A DNA stretch of 38,940 nt from Planctomycetota bacterium (GTDB lineage Bacteria; Planctomycetota; Planctomycetia; Gemmatales; Gemmataceae): positions 1-38,940 of the forward strand of contig VGYC01000055.1 in assembly GCA_016873095.1 (NCBI GenBank), read 5' to 3'. A program made the position numbers and the translations under genes. Each line of letters starts with the position of its first letter. The stretch's first letter is position 1. The notes under the pieces are model-generated. The model did not search any database, was not told the DNA's origin, and saw only the letters and a list, made by a program, of their open reading frames with translations. This document shows positions 317 to 37,752 of the stretch, piece after piece.

Positions 317-424
317 TGCAGCACTCCCGGCTGATGTGTACAACTTGGAATTCTATCGGCCAGCGGTTGGCAGTCAAGAAAGGATCGCCGCAATCGGAAC
401 CATGGAACCATGGCAGGGCAATCA

Positions 425-1684
425 ATGTACCGCCTTCTCACCAGCACGCTCTCCCTCCTCACCATCGCCGCCGTCACCCACGCCGAGAACTGGCCCACCT
501 GGCGTGGCCCGCGTGAGAACGGTGTCAGCAACGACAAGTCGTTGCCGGTCGTCTGGAGCGCGACCAAGAACATCCGCTGGAAGACGGCGTTGCCGGAGGC
601 GGGGAACTCGACGCCGATTGTCTGGGGGAACCGCATCTTTCTCACGCAGGCGCTCGACAAGGGGAAGCGGCGGGCGGTGCTGTGCTTTGACCGGGCGGAT
701 GGGAAGAAGCTCTGGCAGCGCGAGCTGGCTTGCACCACCAAAGAAACCACGCATGCGGACAATCCGCATTGTTCCGGGTCGCCAGTGACGGATGGCCAGG
801 CGGTGTATGCCAGCTTTGCGTCGGCCGGCATTGTCGCCTATGACTTCGACGGCAAGCTGCTCTGGCATCACAAGCTGGAGCCGCTCTTGCATATCTTCGG
901 CAACGGGTCGAGCCCGACGCTGTACAAGGACCTGGTCATCGTCTTTCACGGCCCCGGCGAGCCGACGTACATGATCGCGCTCGACAAGCGTACCGGCAAG
1001 CAGGTCTGGAAGCAGAACGAGCACGCGCTCAATCATCAGCTCTTCGGTACGTGGAGCTCGCCGGTGCTGGCCCGGTTCGGCCAGCGCGACGAGCTCTTGA
1101 TGTGCTTGCCCGGCGAGAAGATCGGCGGCGACGGCTGGGTGAAGAGCTACGACCCGGCGACGGGCAAGGAACTATGGCGGTGCGTGGGACTGGGCGCGTC
1201 GCTGTACGCGTCGGCCACGGTGTCGCCGGCCACGGACGCCATCGTCGCCGCCTCCGGGTTCTACGGCCCGGTCATGGCGATACGCCCGGGCGGCAACGGC
1301 GACGTAACCAAATCGCACCGCATCTGGCACGAGGCGGGCAAGAATCCGCAACGTATCGGCACGCCGGTGGTCGCGGACGGCTACCTTTATCTCGCCGAGG
1401 CCGCCGGCTTTGCCGAGTGCCGCGATGCGCGCACCGGCAAGCGACTCTGGAAGGAACGACTCGACGGCAAGCTCTGGGGCAGCATGCTGCTCGCCGCCGG
1501 CCGGCTCTATGTCAGCAACCTGGAGGGGCAGACCTACGTGCTGGCCGCGGGGCCGAAGTTCCAGCGCCTCGCCACCAACGATATCGGCGAGCCGACCTAC
1601 GCGGCGCTGGCGGCATCCGACGGGGAGATTTTTCTGCGGACGTGGAAACATCTGTATTGCATCAAGGGCAACGACCAACGTTGA
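425..1684 (+). CDS. secreted PQQ-type beta-propeller repeat protein
   Basis: The product is 419 residues, beginning with a signal peptide (MYRLLTSTLSLLTIAAVTHA, then ENWPTWRG). The NWPTWRGP opening and repeated blade motifs (ALDKRTGKQVWK, YDPATGKELWR, RDARTGKRLWK) mark the outer-membrane-protein-assembly BamB/PQQ-like propeller family, very abundant in planctomycetes. These proteins often have no enzymatic PQQ site, and I see no catalytic residues to name. An in-frame ATG at 410 would add five residues. I prefer 425 because the signal peptide is then canonical and AGGG lies about 8 bases upstream. The gene stands alone between the divergent lipoprotein gene and a convergent membrane-protein gene. 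The substrate or partner is unknown. Confidence 0.85.
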   Translation: MYRLLTSTLSLLTIAAVTHAENWPTWRGPRENGVSNDKSLPVVWSATKNIRWKTALPEAGNSTPIVWGNRIFLTQALDKGKRRAVLCFDRADGKKLWQRELACTTKETTHADNPHCSGSPVTDGQAVYASFASAGIVAYDFDGKLLWHHKLEPLLHIFGNGSSPTLYKDLVIVFHGPGEPTYMIALDKRTGKQVWKQNEHALNHQLFGTWSSPVLARFGQRDELLMCLPGEKIGGDGWVKSYDPATGKELWRCVGLGASLYASATVSPATDAIVAASGFYGPVMAIRPGGNGDVTKSHRIWHEAGKNPQRIGTPVVADGYLYLAEAAGFAECRDARTGKRLWKERLDGKLWGSMLLAAGRLYVSNLEGQTYVLAAGPKFQRLATNDIGEPTYAALAASDGEIFLRTWKHLYCIKGNDQR

Positions 1685-18154: not shown

Positions 18155-21100
18155 TCAACGCTCTTCGGCGATGATTTCGACGCCACATAGAATTGTAGCC
18201 GCATCCGGAGTGGTCGAGGTAGGCGAAAGGCGAATCACAAGGTTACCCTCTACGGCAATGCCGGCGAATTCCTTGACCAGCGCGCGATTCGGGCCGCCGG
18301 CCTCCTTGACGATGTCAAGGTCGACGACCTTCTGGTCCTGCACCTGAAGATCAATGAGTCGTTCTCCGGGCTGCAAGTTGTCCGGCTCCACGAAGTGCAG
18401 GCGCACCGTGAACTTTCGAACGTCATCTTTCAAATCGTTGAGGCCGATACTGATCGACGACAGGCCGCGGGCACCTGAAGAGGCCACCCAGCTCTGCTTG
18501 CCATGCACGCGCGACGAATGCTGCCGAAACCATTCTGGTTGCTCTGGAATGGTCTTGATGGGCACGGTCGGGGAGTAGCCTCCGGTGCTGGGGTATTCAA
18601 TCCACAACGTGCCGTTGTCGGCTCGGCGATCCCCCGGCGCGCCGAGGTTGATGCCCAAGCGCCGAATGGGCCCCTTGATCGACTTGGTTCCGAAGTAGGT
18701 CCACAACTCAGCCTCCGGCATGTGCACCAGCGCCAGCGACGTTTGATTCTGATAGCTGCAAGTGCATGTCCGTGTATAGTCAGGCGCATTGAGCAGTCCG
18801 CCGGCAACGATGAGATTATTGGTGCAACTCGAGCGAAAGCCGCCAACGTTGGCGGTGCCACCGTCGTTACACAGATCATAGAAGCCGGCTGCACCGGAAC
18901 GAAACGTCAGCAAGTGTTGCGACGCCGCCGGCGTGTTGCAGCCATAGGTTCGCAGCCATTCCCACGGAACCGGGGTACCCGAGACGGGGTCGAGCCGCGT
19001 CTTGACCTTGCCGGAGAGCAGGTCGCAGGCGCCCTGACCTTGCAGGATGGTGTCGCCATGAATCATGGCGGGGCCGACAAGCGCCTTGTCGAACCACAGC
19101 ACCTTGCCGTCGGCTGCGCGGAAAGCGCGCATGCCGCGCGGTTCGTCGGAGATGGTGTCGCGGGCCACACGGCCGGCCTCCACCAGCACATCGTGCTTGG
19201 CCGAGTAACTCAGCCAGGTCCCGAAAACGCCTTCTTCCGTGGCCCAAAGACGCTTGCCGGTCTTGAGATCGAAGGCGGTCAGCCTGGCTTCGTGATCCGG
19301 TTCCTCGCCGCGACGATTGAGTCGCGCCAGTTGCGGACCGGAGAGGCGGTCGATGGCGTACAACCGGCCGCCGCCGACACAGATGCCATTGTGTCGGAAG
19401 CCGTCGCGGGCCGAGGCCATCCACGATACCTTGCCGGTGCGCCGATCCATGACGACCAGATGCTTGCTCGAGGATAAATTGTCGTTGGCGCCTCGCGCGG
19501 CCTTGCCAAGCAGCTTGCCAAGGCCCAGATCGTTCAGGTCGTCATCGCCGTTGTTCTTTTTCTTCTTGGTATTCTTGTCCGGCACGTCCACGAGCGGATC
19601 AGCACCGCCAATGAGATACTCGCCGACCACATTTAGATAGCCCCAGCGCGGCGATTCCTTCATGCCATCAAGCAGCGGCAGGCGAAACTCGGCGACTGGT
19701 TTGCCGGTGTCCGGATCGAGCCGAAGACAGGTCCTGTCCAGCGCAACATAAATGCCGTCGCTCATGGAGATGTAGTTGGTGCCGCTCGAGTTCGCGCCGG
19801 GCTGATGGGCCAGGTTGTTGAAGAATGAACCGACACCGGGCAGTTGAATCTGCCAGAGCAGCCGGCCAGTGTAGGCATCCAGTGCCCGCAAGAAATGCAC
19901 GCCCTCGACAATGACGCGGCCGTCAATGACCTGTGGCTGCGGACCGTGGCCATGGCGCGGCAGAACGCCGTCGTTGCCCGAACCACCGAACCAGAGAATG
20001 CCAAGCGGAGCCTTGACGAGCCGGTCGGGGGACACACGGGTGTTGGCGGCATCGGCATGCTCGTGCGTCCAGTTGCCCGCGCCGGGCAACGGTCCCGCAC
20101 GGACCAGACAGGGCAAGCCGTCCAACTCAGCGATCTTGACGTTGGCGAACTCGTCACCCCTGGTGGGAACCAGTTTTTCCAAGGAACCGGCGGAGCCCCT
20201 GGTAAAGAAAGCCCGGCTGCCGTAGGGCCTCATCGCCTGGACAATTAACGCAATCGACTTCGCATCCGCGTCCAAGGTGACCACCGCAAGGCTCGCGAGG
20301 TACGGCGGCATCTCGAAAGTCCCAGGATCAGCCTGATAAACGACGGCCCGCGTGCCGTACAGATCCGAAGCCGACAGATTCTCCCATAGTGAATGTGTTG
20401 CATCCTTGTCGGCATCGACGACGATCACGTGAAAATCACTCTGCTTGATCAGTTCCATGACCAGGTCTGCGTCAGCGGCGCCCCAGACGACGGCGAAACC
20501 GGCCCGCGACCCGGTTGCAGCGAGCAGCTTGCCAACCCGTGCTGCCGCCGCATCGGCCGTGCGCACGGTGCGCGCCAGCTTGGGCCGATGGAGCACGACA
20601 ACGCGCTCGTCCGCGCCGAAGCAATAAATCCGGCCTTCGAGCGTGACCGCGAACAAACGATCATCGGCAGCCAGCAACCGGGCAACGGTCCCTTGCACTT
20701 CCATCGACCAGACCACGCCGTTGCCCCTCACGCCGACATCGATGGCCAGTACATTGTTGCCGGCCGCCGCGTAGAGTCGACCTCCGGCCTTGATGAGTTC
20801 CTGCACCGGCGGGGTCTTGCAGGAAGTCAGCTCGTCCATGTGCCAGCGGGTCACCTGGGTTTTCTCGCCCTTGCGATCGACGGTGTCCTCCGTCCTGTGA
20901 GCGGCCGACTTGAGGTCAAAGGCCCGGCAGGCACCGGCGACATGTGTGTACAGCGTGTCGCCATCGATCACGGCACGGGCCTTGTCCGCAGGCGTCCCGC
21001 TGCCGCTTGCCAGCTGGTTCAGCTCGCCCTGGTGCTTGGCGTCCTTCAGGTCGAAAACGGAGCCGGCGTTGAAGAAGAGGCTCATGCCGGCGGCAACTTC

Positions 21101-21925
21101 ATGCCCGCCGCGACGGCCATTCTCCGCAAGCAGTAACTGCAGAAGTTTGCCCGTCTTGCGATCGTACACCGCCGGCACCGAGCGGCCGCCGGGGATGAGT
21201 AATCGATCACCGGCGACCACCAGGTGGCCCTGAGGCGCCACGCCCGCAAAGGAATCCGCATAGTGCGGCTGCTTGATGAATAGCGCCCCGTCGCCGTCAT
21301 TGGTCCAGCGCACGCGGCCGGTTCGAGCATCGAGTGCATGGATGAACGTGCCCATGAACGGCCAGATGCTGGCGGCAAAGTAGACGGTATCGTCGGCGAC
21401 GACGGGCGCGCCGCGCGCCGGCCAGGTGGAGATCAGCCGCTCATTGCCGAGGATCTTGCGATCCGACGGCCCGCCGCGAAACCGCCACAGCCGCTTGCCC
21501 GTTGCCGCCTCCAGGCAATACAGGTAGCCATCATCCGAGCAGACAAAGAGCCGGGTCTCCCAGGCGACCGGCGCAAAGCGGACCGGGCCGCCCAGGCACA
21601 CGCGCCAGATCGGCTCGCCGCTGCGCGTGTCGAGCGCCGTGACGCTATCGTCGCGCGACGACCCGAAGATAAGCAACCTGCCGACAACAACGGGTTCGTA
21701 GCATGCGTCGAACTGCATGCGCGGCTGATCGGGCCAGGCCGGCTTCAGAGCCGGCAACTCGCGGACCCAGTGGGCATGCAGCTTGTCGGGAAGCGGCGTC
21801 GGCGAGGCAGCGCCGCGGTACGCATCGTGCCGCCACATGGGCCAGTCGGCGGCGCGTGCCCGCGCCCCGGACGCAACTGCGATCAGCAGGCCTGCCAGAA
21901 GGGTGGACAGCCGGCGAATATGCAT
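18155..21925 (-). CDS. large PQQ-propeller protein with methyltransferase-like and malectin-like parts
   Basis: The product is 1256 residues with a signal peptide (MHIRRLSTLLAGLLIAVASG, then ARAADWPMWRHD). About 30-450 is a first beta-propeller (ALDTRSGEPIWR, LEAATGKRLWR, LDARTGRVRWT). About 460-585 is a Rossmann-like segment resembling a SAM-methyltransferase fold (AGFAVVWGAADADLVMELI, FHVIVVDADKD, DLYGTRAVVYQADPG, PPYLASLAVV), probably without intact catalysis. A second propeller follows to about 1080. The C-terminal end (FTVRLHFVEPDN, VVDLDIVKEAGGPNRALVKEF) resembles a malectin-type carbohydrate-binding domain. The ATG at 21925 has GGGGA 6 bases upstream. It heads a long co-directional gene run, 62 bases before the lipoprotein gene. 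Probably periplasmic or surface; substrate unknown. Confidence 0.87.
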   Translation of the reverse strand: MHIRRLSTLLAGLLIAVASGARARAADWPMWRHDAYRGAASPTPLPDKLHAHWVRELPALKPAWPDQPRMQFDACYEPVVVGRLLIFGSSRDDSVTALDTRSGEPIWRVCLGGPVRFAPVAWETRLFVCSDDGYLYCLEAATGKRLWRFRGGPSDRKILGNERLISTWPARGAPVVADDTVYFAASIWPFMGTFIHALDARTGRVRWTNDGDGALFIKQPHYADSFAGVAPQGHLVVAGDRLLIPGGRSVPAVYDRKTGKLLQLLLAENGRRGGHEVAAGMSLFFNAGSVFDLKDAKHQGELNQLASGSGTPADKARAVIDGDTLYTHVAGACRAFDLKSAAHRTEDTVDRKGEKTQVTRWHMDELTSCKTPPVQELIKAGGRLYAAAGNNVLAIDVGVRGNGVVWSMEVQGTVARLLAADDRLFAVTLEGRIYCFGADERVVVLHRPKLARTVRTADAAAARVGKLLAATGSRAGFAVVWGAADADLVMELIKQSDFHVIVVDADKDATHSLWENLSASDLYGTRAVVYQADPGTFEMPPYLASLAVVTLDADAKSIALIVQAMRPYGSRAFFTRGSAGSLEKLVPTRGDEFANVKIAELDGLPCLVRAGPLPGAGNWTHEHADAANTRVSPDRLVKAPLGILWFGGSGNDGVLPRHGHGPQPQVIDGRVIVEGVHFLRALDAYTGRLLWQIQLPGVGSFFNNLAHQPGANSSGTNYISMSDGIYVALDRTCLRLDPDTGKPVAEFRLPLLDGMKESPRWGYLNVVGEYLIGGADPLVDVPDKNTKKKKNNGDDDLNDLGLGKLLGKAARGANDNLSSSKHLVVMDRRTGKVSWMASARDGFRHNGICVGGGRLYAIDRLSGPQLARLNRRGEEPDHEARLTAFDLKTGKRLWATEEGVFGTWLSYSAKHDVLVEAGRVARDTISDEPRGMRAFRAADGKVLWFDKALVGPAMIHGDTILQGQGACDLLSGKVKTRLDPVSGTPVPWEWLRTYGCNTPAASQHLLTFRSGAAGFYDLCNDGGTANVGGFRSSCTNNLIVAGGLLNAPDYTRTCTCSYQNQTSLALVHMPEAELWTYFGTKSIKGPIRRLGINLGAPGDRRADNGTLWIEYPSTGGYSPTVPIKTIPEQPEWFRQHSSRVHGKQSWVASSGARGLSSISIGLNDLKDDVRKFTVRLHFVEPDNLQPGERLIDLQVQDQKVVDLDIVKEAGGPNRALVKEFAGIAVEGNLVIRLSPTSTTPDAATILCGVEIIAEER

Positions 21926-22201
21926 GAATCGTCCCCGAAAACAAAGCAAGTCGGCGCAAGTCAGGTGGGAGTTTCGTCAGGCGGCACGCACGCCGCCCAT
22001 TCTCTTTTACCCAGCCTATCGCCGCAGGTTTCGCAAGGCAAGACGGAACGGCCGCTGACTTCGTGAAAGCGGTTCACAAATCTCCCCGCTTCGGAATGAA
22101 ATGCCTGTGCCCGGAGCGCCAGAGCGCCAGCGTGGGCGCACGTGGCGTCTCGGCAACGCTGGTCGCGCTCATTGCCTGCGACTCACATCTGCCAGTACCA
22201 T

Positions 22202-32401: not shown

Positions 32402-34180
32402 TTACCAGTAGTAGAGCGCCCCGAAATTGACGCCGTGGGCCCAGAAGTCGTTGGTGCGGAACAGCACGGCCGGTTGCTGCGGCTGGCTGCCGGAAGTCGA
32501 AGCGGCGCCCGGAATCAGGTTACGATTGATGCGCGGATCGACCTGCTCGCCGACCCGGATGACATTGCTCAGGTAGAGAAACTCATAGCCGACGAAAAAG
32601 CGCAGGTTCTCGGTGGCGTTCCAGCCAAGCTTGACGCCACAGTTGGGCATGACGGCGAATCGATTTGCCTCGCGGCTCGCGATGTTGCTCTCGAGCGCCA
32701 GGAAACCGCCGGACTGAACGGCCGGTGGCGGAAACGCCACGTTTGACTGGCCGTTGATCCCGAGCACCTGGTTGACGTTACCCAGGGCGACCTTGGCCGT
32801 GCCGGTCACCGTGAAGCGCCGTGCAAAGTTCCATTGCCCCTCGATGCCGAGCTGGCCGCCGTTGAAGTTGTTGCGCGTGCTGAAGCGGTCGATGAAGCGC
32901 TCGCCGTTCTCGAGGTCGTCGATGACCAGCAGTTCGGTCAGATCCAGGTGACGGTAGCCAACCAGGGCGTCGAGCCAGGCGCACGGACCGCACCACAACT
33001 TGCCGCGCAGGTTGGCCTCAATCCCCCAGAGATCGCTTGTGTTCAGGACCCGGAAGCTGCCGGTCGTCTGCTGGAAACCGTTGGCTGTCACCGGGTAGGC
33101 CGTCGGAATCACGTTGGCCTCTCCTGTCTGTGCATTGATGAACGGCCGCATCAGGATCGGATTGGTGTTGTTGTCAGCGAAGAACGTGCTGCGGCCTTGG
33201 CCGAGGAAGAAGTAAGACACCTCGACACCCAGACGATCCAGACCGGGTAGCCAGAAGCCTGCGGTGAAGCGAGCGCCGCTGCGCAGCGTATCGGCAAGCT
33301 GATTGCTGCCGTAGAGCACTTGCGTGTCCAGCCGGCCCGGGATGCCCACCTGGGCGCCGTCGCCGATCGGCCCGGTGGTCAGCAACGGCGGCACGTTGTC
33401 CGGCGTGATCGTCCAGAGCAAGTACTCGGCGCTGACCCAGAAGAACTGCCGCGAGTTGCAACCATCGACAAAGCAGCAGCCACAACCGCAGCCGCCGCAG
33501 CTCGCACAGCTGCTGCATGAAACGCATTCGCTGCAAATCGGCTCGCAGCAACAGGTCGAGCAGCTGCAGGATTCGCAACAGGTCTCGCAACACGATGCAT
33601 CACAGCACGACCCCCAGCGGCCGGAACGGCACCGGCCGCGACGGCCAAAGCGCCCGCAACACATGTCGCAAACGCACGAGCATTCACAGCAGTCGCAGCA
33701 GCCGCCGCAGCATTCGCCAGCGTTACAGCTCGCGCACTCGCCGCCGCGAATGCCATCCAGCGGCATCTCCGAACTCGGTCCGTGAGGCACAATTCGCTCC
33801 TCGCCTTCATTCATTGCCGGCACCGGCTTCGGCCGCACCGGAATGGTCTCGGGCTGAGGAGCAGTCGCGATGGCCTGCGTCGTCATCGGCAAGCTCGGAC
33901 CGGAGGGCAGGGGCGCGGGGAAGCGCTCGGCGTCGGTCGGCACGCGGACGATGCCGACCGGACGAAACGACACCGGGGTCACCGCCGAATCGTGCATGGT
34001 CCGATCCGGCTCGACTGCCGTCGGCCGCGCCAGCGTCACCGGCCGACTGGACGCACCCGCGCTCGCCGCCGGTTGTCCCGGTCGCGGCGTCGCGGCACGC
34101 CATTGCACTTCTTGCGCGTGTAACGGATCGATCAGCAGCGCTAGCGCCAGGGTCAATCCGGTGGCTGTGCGAATCGTCAT
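32402..34180 (-). CDS. BBP7-family outer-membrane protein with a cysteine-rich linker
   Basis: The 592-residue protein has a signal peptide (MTIRTATGLTLALALLIDPLHA, then QEVQWRAA), a proline-rich linker to about 145, and a cysteine-rich segment at 149-241 holding about 35 cysteines, many in CC or CxC pairs. The BBP7 barrel follows, starting FFWVSAEYLLWTITPDNVPP with PLLTTG and ending GVNFGALYYW. AAGGAGGG stands about 8 bases before the ATG at 34180; an in-frame ATG at 34255 exists but gives no signal peptide at the N-terminus. The cysteine-rich part could bind metals or form disulfide cross-links in the envelope. The paralog at 30511-32034 has none of these cysteines. A terminator lies just downstream. 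Confidence 0.88.
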   Translation of the reverse strand: MTIRTATGLTLALALLIDPLHAQEVQWRAATPRPGQPAASAGASSRPVTLARPTAVEPDRTMHDSAVTPVSFRPVGIVRVPTDAERFPAPLPSGPSLPMTTQAIATAPQPETIPVRPKPVPAMNEGEERIVPHGPSSEMPLDGIRGGECASCNAGECCGGCCDCCECSCVCDMCCGRFGRRGRCRSGRWGSCCDASCCETCCESCSCSTCCCEPICSECVSCSSCASCGGCGCGCCFVDGCNSRQFFWVSAEYLLWTITPDNVPPLLTTGPIGDGAQVGIPGRLDTQVLYGSNQLADTLRSGARFTAGFWLPGLDRLGVEVSYFFLGQGRSTFFADNNTNPILMRPFINAQTGEANVIPTAYPVTANGFQQTTGSFRVLNTSDLWGIEANLRGKLWCGPCAWLDALVGYRHLDLTELLVIDDLENGERFIDRFSTRNNFNGGQLGIEGQWNFARRFTVTGTAKVALGNVNQVLGINGQSNVAFPPPAVQSGGFLALESNIASREANRFAVMPNCGVKLGWNATENLRFFVGYEFLYLSNVIRVGEQVDPRINRNLIPGAASTSGSQPQQPAVLFRTNDFWAHGVNFGALYYW

Positions 34181-34275
34181 TTCCGCTACCCTCCTTGGCA
34201 GGGGCGTCCGGCCAGGCCCGCTCTCCAATGGCCCGGGCCAGGCGCCGCGACGCATCGAGCTATCTTACCTCCTTT

Positions 34276-34641: not shown

Positions 34642-37600
34642 CTAGACTTTCAGTCGATTCCGCGCCAGCTTCATGAACTCTGCGGAACTCAGCAGAGTCT
34701 GCATGAGGCTATGCTCGCTGACCTGGCCGGCTTGCAGCTTGTCGGTCCACTGCTGGATCTCGGCTGCCGAGGGCATCCGCCGGAGCACGGCGATGAAGCT
34801 GCCGATGACCGCCTGGCTCTGCGCCGCACTTGTATTCAGCAAGTTCGTGGCAATGTCGGCCACGCCCAGCGTGCCCAGCGACTGCACCAGCGTCAGGCGC
34901 GTCAGCGAGTCCGGAATCTGCCGCAACACGTCTTCGTAGAAACCGAGAATGAACGTTTCCGGCGTCGAGTGCGCGGCCAGGTATTCCGCCGACGTCAGCA
35001 CCGTGAAGCGGACGTCATTGAGGCTGCCACCGGCGAGCAAGCTGTTGACGCCGCTCGCCAGTTCCGCGGCGTTCGGGCCGCGATGCAGGATCGAACTGTA
35101 GATCTTCTTGACCTCATAGGACCAGTGCTCCTTGGTGTTCCACAGCGACTTGACCATCTGAGACGCCGGCATGCCCTTGCGCAACCGCGTCAACCAGGTG
35201 GTGGCCTCAGCACGCGTCGGCGGACGGTTGTCGAGAGTCTTGTACGTGCCATCGATGAAGGTCAGCAAGCGCAGCACCCGGGGATCCATCGATTTTTCCC
35301 AGCCAGGGGCCAGCTGGTTCTTGCTGACGATGGGCGCCCGCGTCACCAGCGGCGGAATGTTTTGCTGCAACACCTTGCCCGGCTGATTGAAAACCGTGAT
35401 CGGCACGGTGCTCCTGTTGTTGGTCGGGTTCGGGTCAGGTGTCGAAGACGTGACCGTCGAGACGTTGATGAATGTACCCACCGCCAGCGGTGCCTTGGCG
35501 GTGATGGTGATGACGCTGCTCTCGCCGGCAGCCATGCCGGACCGCGTCGCCGTGATCACGCCATTGCTCACGGTGATTGTCCAGCCGGCGCCGGTAGCGC
35601 CAACGTAGGTTACTCCCGTCGGCAACGTGTCCGTGACGCTGACGTTTTGCGCAGGCCCGGTGCCGAGATTGCTCACATTCAGCGTGTAGGTGAAGGTTGC
35701 GCCGATCTGCACGGTGCTGGAGCTGACCGTCTTGACGATGGCCATGTCCGCCGGCTGCAGCTCGCCGAAGTTGTTGTCCGTACCCTGGATGCCCATGCCC
35801 AGCGCGATGCCGAAAAACTGGTTCGTCGCCGTCTGGCCGCCCGGAGTGCCAATGTTGTTGGGACCTTCGGCGTATCCCGCCGGCTGCGTCTCGGTGATCG
35901 TGTAGGTTCCGGGGCGCAGGTTAGTGAACTGGTAGAAGCCGGACTGATTGGTGGTCGTCGTCATCTGCACGGAACCCAGGCTGGTCGTGCCCGTGAGCGT
36001 GATGGTCACGTTGGCGATTGCCGGGTCACCGGCATCCTTGACGCCGCTGTTGTTGATGTCGAGATACACGTATCCTGACAGACTGGCCGGCACGAGCTCG
36101 CCGAAGTTGTTGTTCAGACTCTGCTTCCCGGAAGCAAGCGGCACGCCCGAGATCATGTTGGTCCCGGCGGTGCCGCCCAGCGAGCCGGGCGTGACGATGC
36201 CATCCAGATAACTGGCTGGCTGCGTCTCGGTCACGGCGTAGCTGCCGGGCCGCAAACCGGTGAATTCATAGTAGCCGGCCGCGTTGGTCTGCGTCGTCTT
36301 GGAGACGCTGTTGCCCAGGTCGTCGGTGCCACTGAGCGTCAAGGTGACCAGGTTGATGGCACTTTCGCCGCCTTCCTTGATGCCGTTGTTGTTGGCGTCC
36401 ACGTACACGTAGCCGGAAAGGCTGGCCGACTCAAGTTCACCAAAATTGTTGGTGACGCTGTTCGAGGCAGAGTTCAGGTTGATCTGGCTGATGATATTGG
36501 TGCCCGCCACGCCGCCGGTCGAACCGGGCGTGACCTTGCCATCGAGGTATGCGATCGGCTGGGTCTCGGTCACGGTGTAGCTGCCAGGCCTCAGGCCAGT
36601 GAACTCGTAAAAGCCGGCCGCATTGGTCTGCGTCGTCTTGGAGACGCTGTTGCCCAGGTCGTCCGTACCGGTAAGCGCCAGGTTGACGAGGTTGATGGCG
36701 CTCTCGCCGTTCTCCTTGATGCCGTTGTTGTTGCTATCAACGTAAACGTAGCCGGAAACCTTGGCCGGAATGAGCTCGCCGAAGTCGTTGTCCTTGAGGT
36801 CCGTATTGTTCAGCGTGACCTGAATCTTGTTTGTGCCCGGCGGGACATTGAGGACATTGCCGCCGCTGGACAGCTTGCCCGGGACATAGCCGGCGGGCGG
36901 CTGTTCGTTGAGGATGATCGTGTAGTTGCCTTTTTCGAGGCAGTTGCCGGGAATGTAGCGATAGACGACCTTCACCGTGCTGTCGCCCGTGCTGATGAGC
37001 TGGGCCACGAGGTTGCCGCCGCCGGTGGCGGACGAGGTAGCCTTGCCATCCGTGGTCAGCGACACGGTACCGGTGCCAGTGAAGCCGGCCATGTCGTTGC
37101 CCGTCAGCGTCAGCATCTTGGAGCCGGTAGCGGACTTGGGCGCGAAAGTAAAACCACTGTTGCCGTTGAAATCGAGAACCAGGTCATACTTGGCGGCATT
37201 GAAGGAACCGGCATTGGCCGACAGATCCAGCATCGACGTGAACCCGGGGCCGGTCAACTTGATGTTTCCGGCGACGGTCGCGTTGATGGATGCCGGCGAG
37301 GTCTCGCTCGTGTTCTCGACCTTGATGGTGCTGGTGATCGTCCCGCTGTGATAGATCTCCACCGCCAGAAGCTGGCCCAGCGATGAATCAAACTTGTTCA
37401 CTAGCTTTGACAGCGAGTAGTCCGTCTGCGTGGCGGGATAGACGATGGTCTGTTCGATCGTTGTTTCGGCCGTGTTGACAGTGGGATCGTGATCGAACGA
37501 ATAGAAGCCGTTGCTGTCGGTGACCGTCGTGGCGATGAGCTTGTTGCTGGCATCCACAAGCTTAATGGTGGCATTGGCGATGGGGTTTTCGCCGGCCTCG

Positions 37601-37752
37601 CGCAGGCCGTTGTTGTTCAGATCGTGGAAGACATGGCCGCTGATGACGTTGCAGCTCATGAGCGAGCGTTCTTCGAGAGACTCGATGGCCAATGGGCGCG
37701 ACGCGGTCCGCGGCTTGCTCGTCTTCTTGCTGAGGCATGAAAAGACTCCCAT
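34642..37752 (-). CDS. large surface protein with SdrD-B, DUF11 and DUF4214 domains
   Basis: The 1036-residue protein begins MGVFSCLSKKTSK and has the motif LAIESLEERSLMS at 21-33. That N-terminal ESLEER motif is common to planctomycete exported surface proteins and probably serves in sorting. SdrD-B-like Ig folds begin at about 38, 334, 447 and 558, each with GYVYxDxNNNGxK-type calcium-loop sequences and a NNFGEL ending. A DUF11-type repeat (about 665-790; ADMAIVKTVSSSTVQIGATFTY) follows. The C-terminus (about 825-1030) has two DUF4214-like repeats with LLSSAEF and LTSAEYL. It is likely an extracellular adhesive or matrix protein. GGGAGG stands 5 bases before the ATG. The gene is monocistronic by its own terminator. 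Confidence 0.9.
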   Translation of the reverse strand: MGVFSCLSKKTSKPRTASRPLAIESLEERSLMSCNVISGHVFHDLNNNGLREAGENPIANATIKLVDASNKLIATTVTDSNGFYSFDHDPTVNTAETTIEQTIVYPATQTDYSLSKLVNKFDSSLGQLLAVEIYHSGTITSTIKVENTSETSPASINATVAGNIKLTGPGFTSMLDLSANAGSFNAAKYDLVLDFNGNSGFTFAPKSATGSKMLTLTGNDMAGFTGTGTVSLTTDGKATSSATGGGNLVAQLISTGDSTVKVVYRYIPGNCLEKGNYTIILNEQPPAGYVPGKLSSGGNVLNVPPGTNKIQVTLNNTDLKDNDFGELIPAKVSGYVYVDSNNNGIKENGESAINLVNLALTGTDDLGNSVSKTTQTNAAGFYEFTGLRPGSYTVTETQPIAYLDGKVTPGSTGGVAGTNIISQINLNSASNSVTNNFGELESASLSGYVYVDANNNGIKEGGESAINLVTLTLSGTDDLGNSVSKTTQTNAAGYYEFTGLRPGSYAVTETQPASYLDGIVTPGSLGGTAGTNMISGVPLASGKQSLNNNFGELVPASLSGYVYLDINNSGVKDAGDPAIANVTITLTGTTSLGSVQMTTTTNQSGFYQFTNLRPGTYTITETQPAGYAEGPNNIGTPGGQTATNQFFGIALGMGIQGTDNNFGELQPADMAIVKTVSSSTVQIGATFTYTLNVSNLGTGPAQNVSVTDTLPTGVTYVGATGAGWTITVSNGVITATRSGMAAGESSVITITAKAPLAVGTFINVSTVTSSTPDPNPTNNRSTVPITVFNQPGKVLQQNIPPLVTRAPIVSKNQLAPGWEKSMDPRVLRLLTFIDGTYKTLDNRPPTRAEATTWLTRLRKGMPASQMVKSLWNTKEHWSYEVKKIYSSILHRGPNAAELASGVNSLLAGGSLNDVRFTVLTSAEYLAAHSTPETFILGFYEDVLRQIPDSLTRLTLVQSLGTLGVADIATNLLNTSAAQSQAVIGSFIAVLRRMPSAAEIQQWTDKLQAGQVSEHSLMQTLLSSAEFMKLARNRLKV
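36094..36753 (-). repeat. two near-identical in-frame SdrD-B repeats
   Basis: The coding units at about 36430-36753 (residues 334-441) and 36094-36420 (445-553) are near-duplicates. They share GTDDLGNSVSKTTQTNAAG and EFTGLRPGSY, and long DNA identity around the LGNSVSKTTQTN stretch. The neighbouring repeats at both sides are more diverged, so this pair reflects a recent duplication or gene conversion. Confidence 0.75.

Follow-up and report, generated by a model that had tools for sequence, protein, structure and literature searches.

A planctomycete BBP7 barrel protein with an extreme cysteine-rich segment, and a possible periplasmic cysteine collar in its relatives

A BBP7 gene and its surroundings

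The stretch of DNA analysed here, called the window, is 38,940 nucleotides long and comes from a Planctomycetota bacterium of the family Gemmataceae (assembly GCA_016873095.1, contig VGYC01000055.1, positions 1 to 38,940). Towards one end it encodes a protein of the BBP7 family (PF07585, also DUF1551), a predicted outer-membrane barrel. The match covers the whole profile (1-350 of 350) with 272.6 bits against the Pfam gathering cut-off of 26 and an E-value of 6.9e-81. The parts of the gene are collected in Table 1. From the N-terminus, a signal peptide-like stretch, probably cleaved after LHA as judged from its letters, is followed by a spacer, then by a segment crowded with cysteines, and finally by the barrel. 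Nearby lies a BBP7 paralog whose barrel is preceded by a Gly/Ser/Pro linker with no cysteine at all.

Table 1. Features of the BBP7 gene and its paralog in the window
Feature	Positions	Strand	Basis
BBP7-family outer-membrane barrel protein gene (592 aa + stop)	32402..34180	-	ORF; PF07585 match; barrel tree
Likely ribosome binding site AAGGAGG, 9 bases 5' of the ATG	34190..34196	-	Sequence
Signal peptide-like N-terminus, residues 1-22	34115..34180	-	Sequence; helix 2-20 in low-confidence model
Pro/Ala/Arg-rich spacer, residues 23-148, Cys-free	33737..34114	-	Sequence; partly alignable with paralog and L059
Cysteine-rich segment, residues 149-241, 35 Cys in 93	33458..33736	-	Translation, composition
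BBP7 barrel domain PF07585, residues 248-592, ten long strands predicted	32405..33439	-	Pfam; models
CGPC, residues 397-400, predicted periplasmic turn T2	32981..32992	-	Cys mapping on model
Neighbouring BBP7 paralog, 507 aa	30511..32034	-	Pfam; sister in barrel tree, support 0.995

Just upstream of the BBP7 gene (34642-37752, minus strand) is the gene of a 1036-residue surface-like protein with choice-of-anchor E, SdrD B-like repeats, DUF11 and a DUF4214-like end. Two PQQ/BamB-like beta-propeller proteins are encoded at 413-1684 (plus strand) and at 18155-21949 (minus strand), of which the larger also matches malectin weakly. A SBP_bac_11/BPD transporter pair, substrate unassigned, is found among 20 further ORFs of the window that were compared with Pfam.

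Composition and reality of the cysteine-rich segment

The cysteines, 38% of the residues of the segment, fall mostly into close pairs (10 CC, 7 CxC and 15 CxxC). The rest includes 13 Ser, 13 Gly, 10 acidic residues and 6 Arg, with no His and no Lys. The coordinates and counts given in the initial annotation proved exact on recount, and its contrast with the cysteine-free linker of the paralog and its placing of the segment between signal peptide and barrel were both borne out.

A composition of this kind might come from an error of frame, assembly or annotation, and the genome is indeed a draft in 548 contigs. I consider such an origin scarcely credible. The paralog matches the window protein in the same frame on both sides of the segment, over residues 3-107 (47%) and 235-592. 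Another relative, L040 from the metagenome-assembled genome Gemmataceae bacterium PMV_1.61 (L059 lies on the same stretch of contig), can be aligned throughout, signal peptide included, with 39% identity over the full length. As relatives keep the same frame on either side of it, the segment is no frameshift artefact, and the suspicion voiced in the initial annotation, that indels at both ends might have put it in a wrong frame, falls. The codons agree. TGY occurs 35 times in the frame of the gene, once and three times in the other frames of the same strand and zero to five times in those of the opposite strand, while 5000 base shuffles of the segment gave a mean of 4.8 TGY codons and a maximum of 13. 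In the rest of the window, the surroundings of the segment left out, no stop-free stretch of 93 codons in any of the six frames encodes more than 13 cysteines, and in 400 kb of the organism's own genome the richest of 3712 open stretches (at least 60 codons) has 19 and the next 16. The gene is preceded by a ribosome binding site, and other genomes have cysteine-rich segments at the same place. The flanks, the single TGY-rich frame and the ribosome binding site together led me to reject the artefact.

As an exact sequence the segment stands by itself. Used alone as a query, it found no convincing relative in its own genome (E up to 10), in 95 genomes of its family (E up to 0.1) or in 397 genomes of its class (E up to 0.01), two draws that overlap; there were weak matches only, the best with an E-value of 0.001. 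A search of PDB sequences gave zero matches at E up to 1. From each of 28 fetched loci the most cysteine-rich open stretch was taken. One of these, L096, is a ferredoxin-like protein, and two others, the 18-cysteine stretch of L098 and the 13-cysteine stretch of L100, were judged by eye to be chance frames and set aside.

Cysteines ahead of the barrel in other BBP7 proteins

If the sequence of the segment is not shared, its kind may be. Among 162 distinct BBP7 proteins, class-wide loci included, cysteine makes up 7.8% of the 40 residues immediately ahead of the barrel (the near part), 1.3% of residues 41-100 upstream (the far part) and 0.8% of the barrel itself. The near part is richer than the far part in 93 proteins and poorer in 13, out of the 136 with enough upstream sequence to be scored (the other 26 have fewer than 120 upstream residues). 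This set excludes barrels shorter than 300 residues and one broken copy, L039. In a set of 138 distinct BBP7 proteins, mostly from the family of the window organism and including L039, cysteine amounts to 3.5% of the 100 residues that lead up to the barrel, 0.7% of the barrel and 0.9% of residues 100-200 upstream. Counted in steps of ten residues upstream from the barrel, with the window protein left out, the values for this set are 7.3, 8.7, 6.2, 2.9 and 1.9%, then about 1%, so the excess is limited to the last 40-50 residues.

How far these figures depend on the choice of proteins can be judged from the way they were taken. Twenty regions were chosen mostly for matches that start upstream of the barrel, and 18 of them are within the set of 162. 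The remaining loci are best-scoring matches, except for 60 regions that were taken in list order and are reported apart. In the proteins of these 60, the near part has 4.2% cysteine, the far part 0.5% and the barrel 0.7% (53 scored; near part richer in 27, poorer in 9), and the median is one cysteine among the 100 residues that precede the barrel. The list-order values are lower, and the enrichment is therefore real but weaker than in the best-scoring loci. It extends beyond the Gemmataceae: 31 of 35 BBP7 proteins from outside that family carry one or more cysteines among the 100 residues ahead of the barrel, and cysteine reaches 11.5% in the near part as against 2.3% in the far part (33 scored). 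For these 35 the family codes were assigned by hand from tables, the barrel limit was 280 residues, and there is overlap with the set of 162.

The window protein has the most extreme count ahead of the barrel among the BBP7 proteins examined. Its 35 cysteines are about twice those of the next, L074, with 18, followed by L011 and L039 with 14 each and L076 with 13; 152 of the 162 proteins have fewer than ten. The number can vary among near relatives, for four BBP7 proteins of one genus (L012, L072, L076 and L074) have 7, 7, 13 and 18. At the other end, 36 of the 162, the sister paralog included, have no cysteine within 100 residues of the barrel on its N-terminal side, which argues that whatever these cysteines do is dispensable for the barrel. 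In close pairs of proteins, Pro (68%), Cys (65%, a figure inflated by BLOSUM62 scoring) and Arg (60%) are among the best-kept residues of the pre-barrel region. The counts show no bias towards even numbers, which would have hinted at disulfides (54 even against 53 odd among proteins with at least two cysteines).

Cysteine-rich linkers in BBP7 homologues, which the initial annotation had suggested looking for, are thus present, some relatives having 7-18 cysteines at this place. The objection that no homologue shares the segment fails for its kind and holds for its exact sequence in the 95 family and 397 class genomes searched.

Two smaller observations belong here. A motif CGPxGR directly ahead of strand 1 is common to several relatives (for example L017, L019, L022, L081-L084, L116 and L153) and is possibly a docking or folding signal. 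The broken copy L039 (G003:C142) combines a linker of tandem CVSAP-like cysteine-rich units with an interrupted barrel frame, which makes it a pseudogene unless the assembly is at fault.

On which side of the membrane?

In bacterial outer-membrane barrels, by a well-established rule, the side with the short turns and the two termini is the periplasmic one. AlphaFold2 models of the window protein, full length and barrel alone, both have ten long strands with the N-terminus on the side of the short turns. Four of the five connections from odd to even strands are long (at least 24 residues), and those from even to odd strands have 3-6 residues. By the topology rule, the cysteine-rich segment would lie most likely in the periplasm, directly under the mouth of the barrel, and not at the surface. 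I infer the side in this way because the models, built on three sequences, have low confidence (pLDDT 41 for the full length and 64 for the barrel alone). The initial annotation had the segment exposed either in the periplasm or at the surface. Exposure outside the cytoplasm stands, and of the two sides the models, at low to middling confidence, suggest the periplasm and not the surface.

Among the solved folds listed in a structural comparison, those nearest to the barrel model, itself of middling confidence, are Legionella porin I, OpcA and the omptins, the best rows having Z between 18.9 and 21.6: 9nh1 (Z 21.6, rmsd 4.1, 246 residues aligned), OpcA 1k24 (Z 20.9, rmsd 3.5, 229 aligned) and OmpT 1i78 (Z 18.9, rmsd 4.3, 227 aligned). 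Both OpcA and the omptins are ten-stranded, with their termini in the periplasm. On this model the predicted fold resembles theirs; identity to the window barrel is 7-12%, and the omptin family of Pfam gave no match in a scan up to E 1, which returned BBP7 only. I know of no cysteine collar in omptins, OpcA or Legionella porin I. A table in PMC4827864 enters both omptin and DUF1551 under the chlamydial porin family PomS/T, and this grouping agrees with the omptin-like fold predicted here.

Cysteines within the barrel lie almost only on one face of the model

The strands of the model, mapped onto the 162 BBP7 barrels, allow their cysteines to be assigned to parts of the barrel. There are 445, and 397 of them fall in the four short turns plus one to five flanking strand residues on each side (widest at T2), an area of 5852 of the 57513 residues. 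The long loops, with 25333 residues, have 8, and the rest of the strands, with 26328 residues, has 40. T1 has 91, T2 (residues 393-402) 271, T3 12 and T4 23, making T2 the chief hot spot of the family, and the CGPC of the window protein lies there. The proteins taken in list order give the same picture (134 in turns, 2 in long loops and 3 in strands).

The total for the turns depends on where their limits are set. Under strict limits, 233 cysteines are in the turns (2598 residues), 205 in the strands (30068 residues) and 7 in the long loops (24847 residues); of the 205, 117 occupy residues 396-397, where strand 4 ends next to T2. With turns and loops both widened by two residues, the numbers are 376, 8 and 61. 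The long loops have 7-8 cysteines under every limit, and their near-absence there is independent of the limits. The pattern covers BBP7 barrels only, and it may be of use as a guide to topology in a family that is still uncharacterised.

Of the 162 proteins, 102 have cysteines in both places, ahead of the barrel and in T1 or T2. Another 24 have them ahead of the barrel but in neither of these turns, 24 in these turns but not ahead of the barrel, and 12 in neither place. The correlation between the counts before the barrel and in T2 is weak (Spearman 0.32, not corrected for kinship). The one-sided pattern within the barrel is the strongest support for the view that the pre-barrel segment and the turns would be together on one face.

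Distribution and history

BBP7 was found in 247 of 297 genomes of the class Planctomycetia and in none of 14 control genomes. P0001 was matched in all 95 family genomes. In a draw from the phylum, 101 of 393 genomes had a match, and 6 of the matches listed lie outside the class. Among the listed class genomes with no match, 19 of 20 belong to the family coded f3, and there is no f3 among the listed matches; judged from these searches, one whole family seems to be without BBP7.

In a tree of the 162 barrels the window gene is the sister of its cysteine-free neighbour. The state of having at least nine cysteines before the barrel requires 8 changes on the tree, as against a mean of 13.6 and a minimum of 11 when the labels are shuffled, so large collars have been gained or lost repeatedly and yet are clustered. 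A periplasmic collar of cysteines appears, if the modelled topology is right, to recur in many BBP7 proteins of the class; the sequence is unique to the window protein, the kind is common. The initial annotation had offered the segment as a good candidate for an undescribed device. It does not stand alone, as cysteine recurs at the predicted periplasmic face of many BBP7 proteins of the Planctomycetia. As for its being undescribed, no description of a cysteine-rich linker or collar in BBP7 was found in the open papers searched, and this is apparently a known barrel family with an undescribed periplasmic cysteine collar.

What might the cysteines do?

I propose that they form a disulfide collar. 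The signal peptide, the proline-rich spacer and the cysteine-rich segment abutting strand 1 would make up the periplasmic N-terminal tail of a ten-stranded barrel, and the cysteines of the tail would join those of the periplasmic turns in a thiol-rich collar at the inner mouth. In an oxidising periplasm the thiols would form disulfides, a few of which would brace the tail to the turns. Where the collar is expanded, surplus cysteines would join one barrel to another, or to further cysteine-rich proteins of the envelope, and these cross-links would stiffen it. The analysis shows the segment, its place, the recurrence of such a collar in the class and the one-sided spread of cysteines on the model; I infer the side, the disulfides, the cross-linking and the partners, and give the proposal about an even chance of being right. 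The organism's own genome has two matches to the DsbB family (each over about 60% of the profile, above the cut-off) and one to the DsbD family, which I count in favour of an oxidising periplasm and disulfide formation. No VKOR was found in it, which counts against disulfides, and the 36 proteins with no cysteine ahead of the barrel, the 12 that lack both parts of the collar and the weaker enrichment in the list-order proteins count against the proposal as well.

An alternative view is that the segment binds metal, as a metallothionein-like array of thiolates for soft metals (Cu, Zn, Cd, Hg) or as a holder of iron-sulfur clusters, in the periplasm near the mouth of the barrel. So dense a set of CC, CxC and CxxC is typical of thiolate metal sites, and some TIGR03000 proteins of the same genome have repeats rich in Cys and His. 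Metallothioneins, however, are small, soluble and mostly cytosolic, whereas the segment belongs to a secreted barrel protein and matched no metallothionein in Pfam (E up to 1) or among PDB sequences (E up to 1). It has neither His nor Lys, and none of the 20 further ORFs matched a metal-resistance family in Pfam (E up to 1e-4). Relatives with 2-8 cysteines, together with the cysteines of the barrel turns, fit disulfides at least equally well. I regard metal binding as unlikely, and favour disulfides over metal or iron-sulfur clusters, a choice that sequence alone cannot decide. The disulfides might instead be entirely internal, making a knot in or under the mouth that gates or rigidifies the barrel and has no links to other proteins. 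The segment does abut strand 1, the turn cysteines are on the same side of the model, and the counts before the barrel and in T2 are correlated, if weakly. Thirty-five cysteines with no spacing common to the relatives compared are, however, unlike a defined knot, and the sister paralog does without the segment; I doubt this reading too. Finally, the segment may be a low-complexity linker, tolerant of cysteine, that was lengthened by slippage during replication and does nothing in particular. That the exact segment has no convincing relative, that the count ranges from 7 to 18 within one genus, and that the paralog and 36 of the 162 relatives have none are what such drift would lead one to expect. 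It does not account for an enrichment at the edge of the barrel that recurs across the class, for long loops nearly free of cysteine, or for cysteine being among the best-kept residues ahead of the barrel in close pairs, nor is the DNA of the segment a simple repeat (self-identity 0.36-0.47 at lags of 3-30 bases). Drift is, to my mind, distinctly improbable.

Relation to known cysteine-rich envelope proteins

How an envelope with little or no ordinary peptidoglycan is kept stable is an old question in planctomycetes, whose walls have been described as rich in protein. A concrete candidate for anchoring or cross-linking the outer membrane is a widespread barrel whose cysteines are nearly confined to one face; as its collar is the largest found, the window protein would be the natural one to test.

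The proposed network would work like that of the chlamydial outer-membrane complex, from the same superphylum (PVC), whose barrel also bears cysteines. Passages of PMC549562 and PMC3561449 describe the chlamydial porin MOMP as cross-linked by disulfides with OmcA and OmcB. Cross-linking is established there; in BBP7 it is a proposal from sequence and model. The positions differ as well: six of the nine cysteines of MOMP were modelled in outer loops, according to a passage of PMC549562, whereas those of the window protein are in the N-terminal tail and the predicted periplasmic turns. Chlam_OMP had no match in the window protein (the Pfam scan up to E 1 gave BBP7 only).

Nearer by, parts of PMC8567305 report cysteine-rich YTV proteins in wall preparations of Gemmataceae, and parts of PMC10632474 list such proteins among the essential genes of Planctopirus limnophila and suggest that they affect the rigidity of the wall through their cysteines. 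They, too, are cysteine-rich envelope proteins of planctomycetes, but BBP7 is a predicted membrane barrel, and the two are likened by description only. If they nevertheless meet, a belt of BBP7 thiols on the inner side of the outer membrane would, in the Planctomycetia, tie that membrane by disulfides to a wall of cysteine-rich proteins, doing a job like that of Lpp or OmpA on the peptidoglycan of other bacteria, and the number of cysteines in the collar would tune the tie. This wider idea is speculative and I think it unlikely, but if it were true, the window protein with its 35 cysteines would be the strongest anchor seen.

Other cysteine-rich proteins are encoded in the organism's own genome, which has 13 matches to TIGR03000. 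Four of the frames, L171, L172, L176 and L180 (G000:C74, C260, C61; L171 and L180 are adjacent genes), have 16-36 cysteines, mostly in GC-x-GC-like repeats such as CHGCHGC and CYGCYGC that follow a hydrophobic N-terminus. From their sequences, these proteins are candidate partners of the collar or else a further cysteine-rich family. The other nine frames chosen have 1-9 cysteines, and in four of them (L174, L175, L177 and L183) a neighbouring frame seems to have been chosen. The letters YTV occur in the domain of L172.
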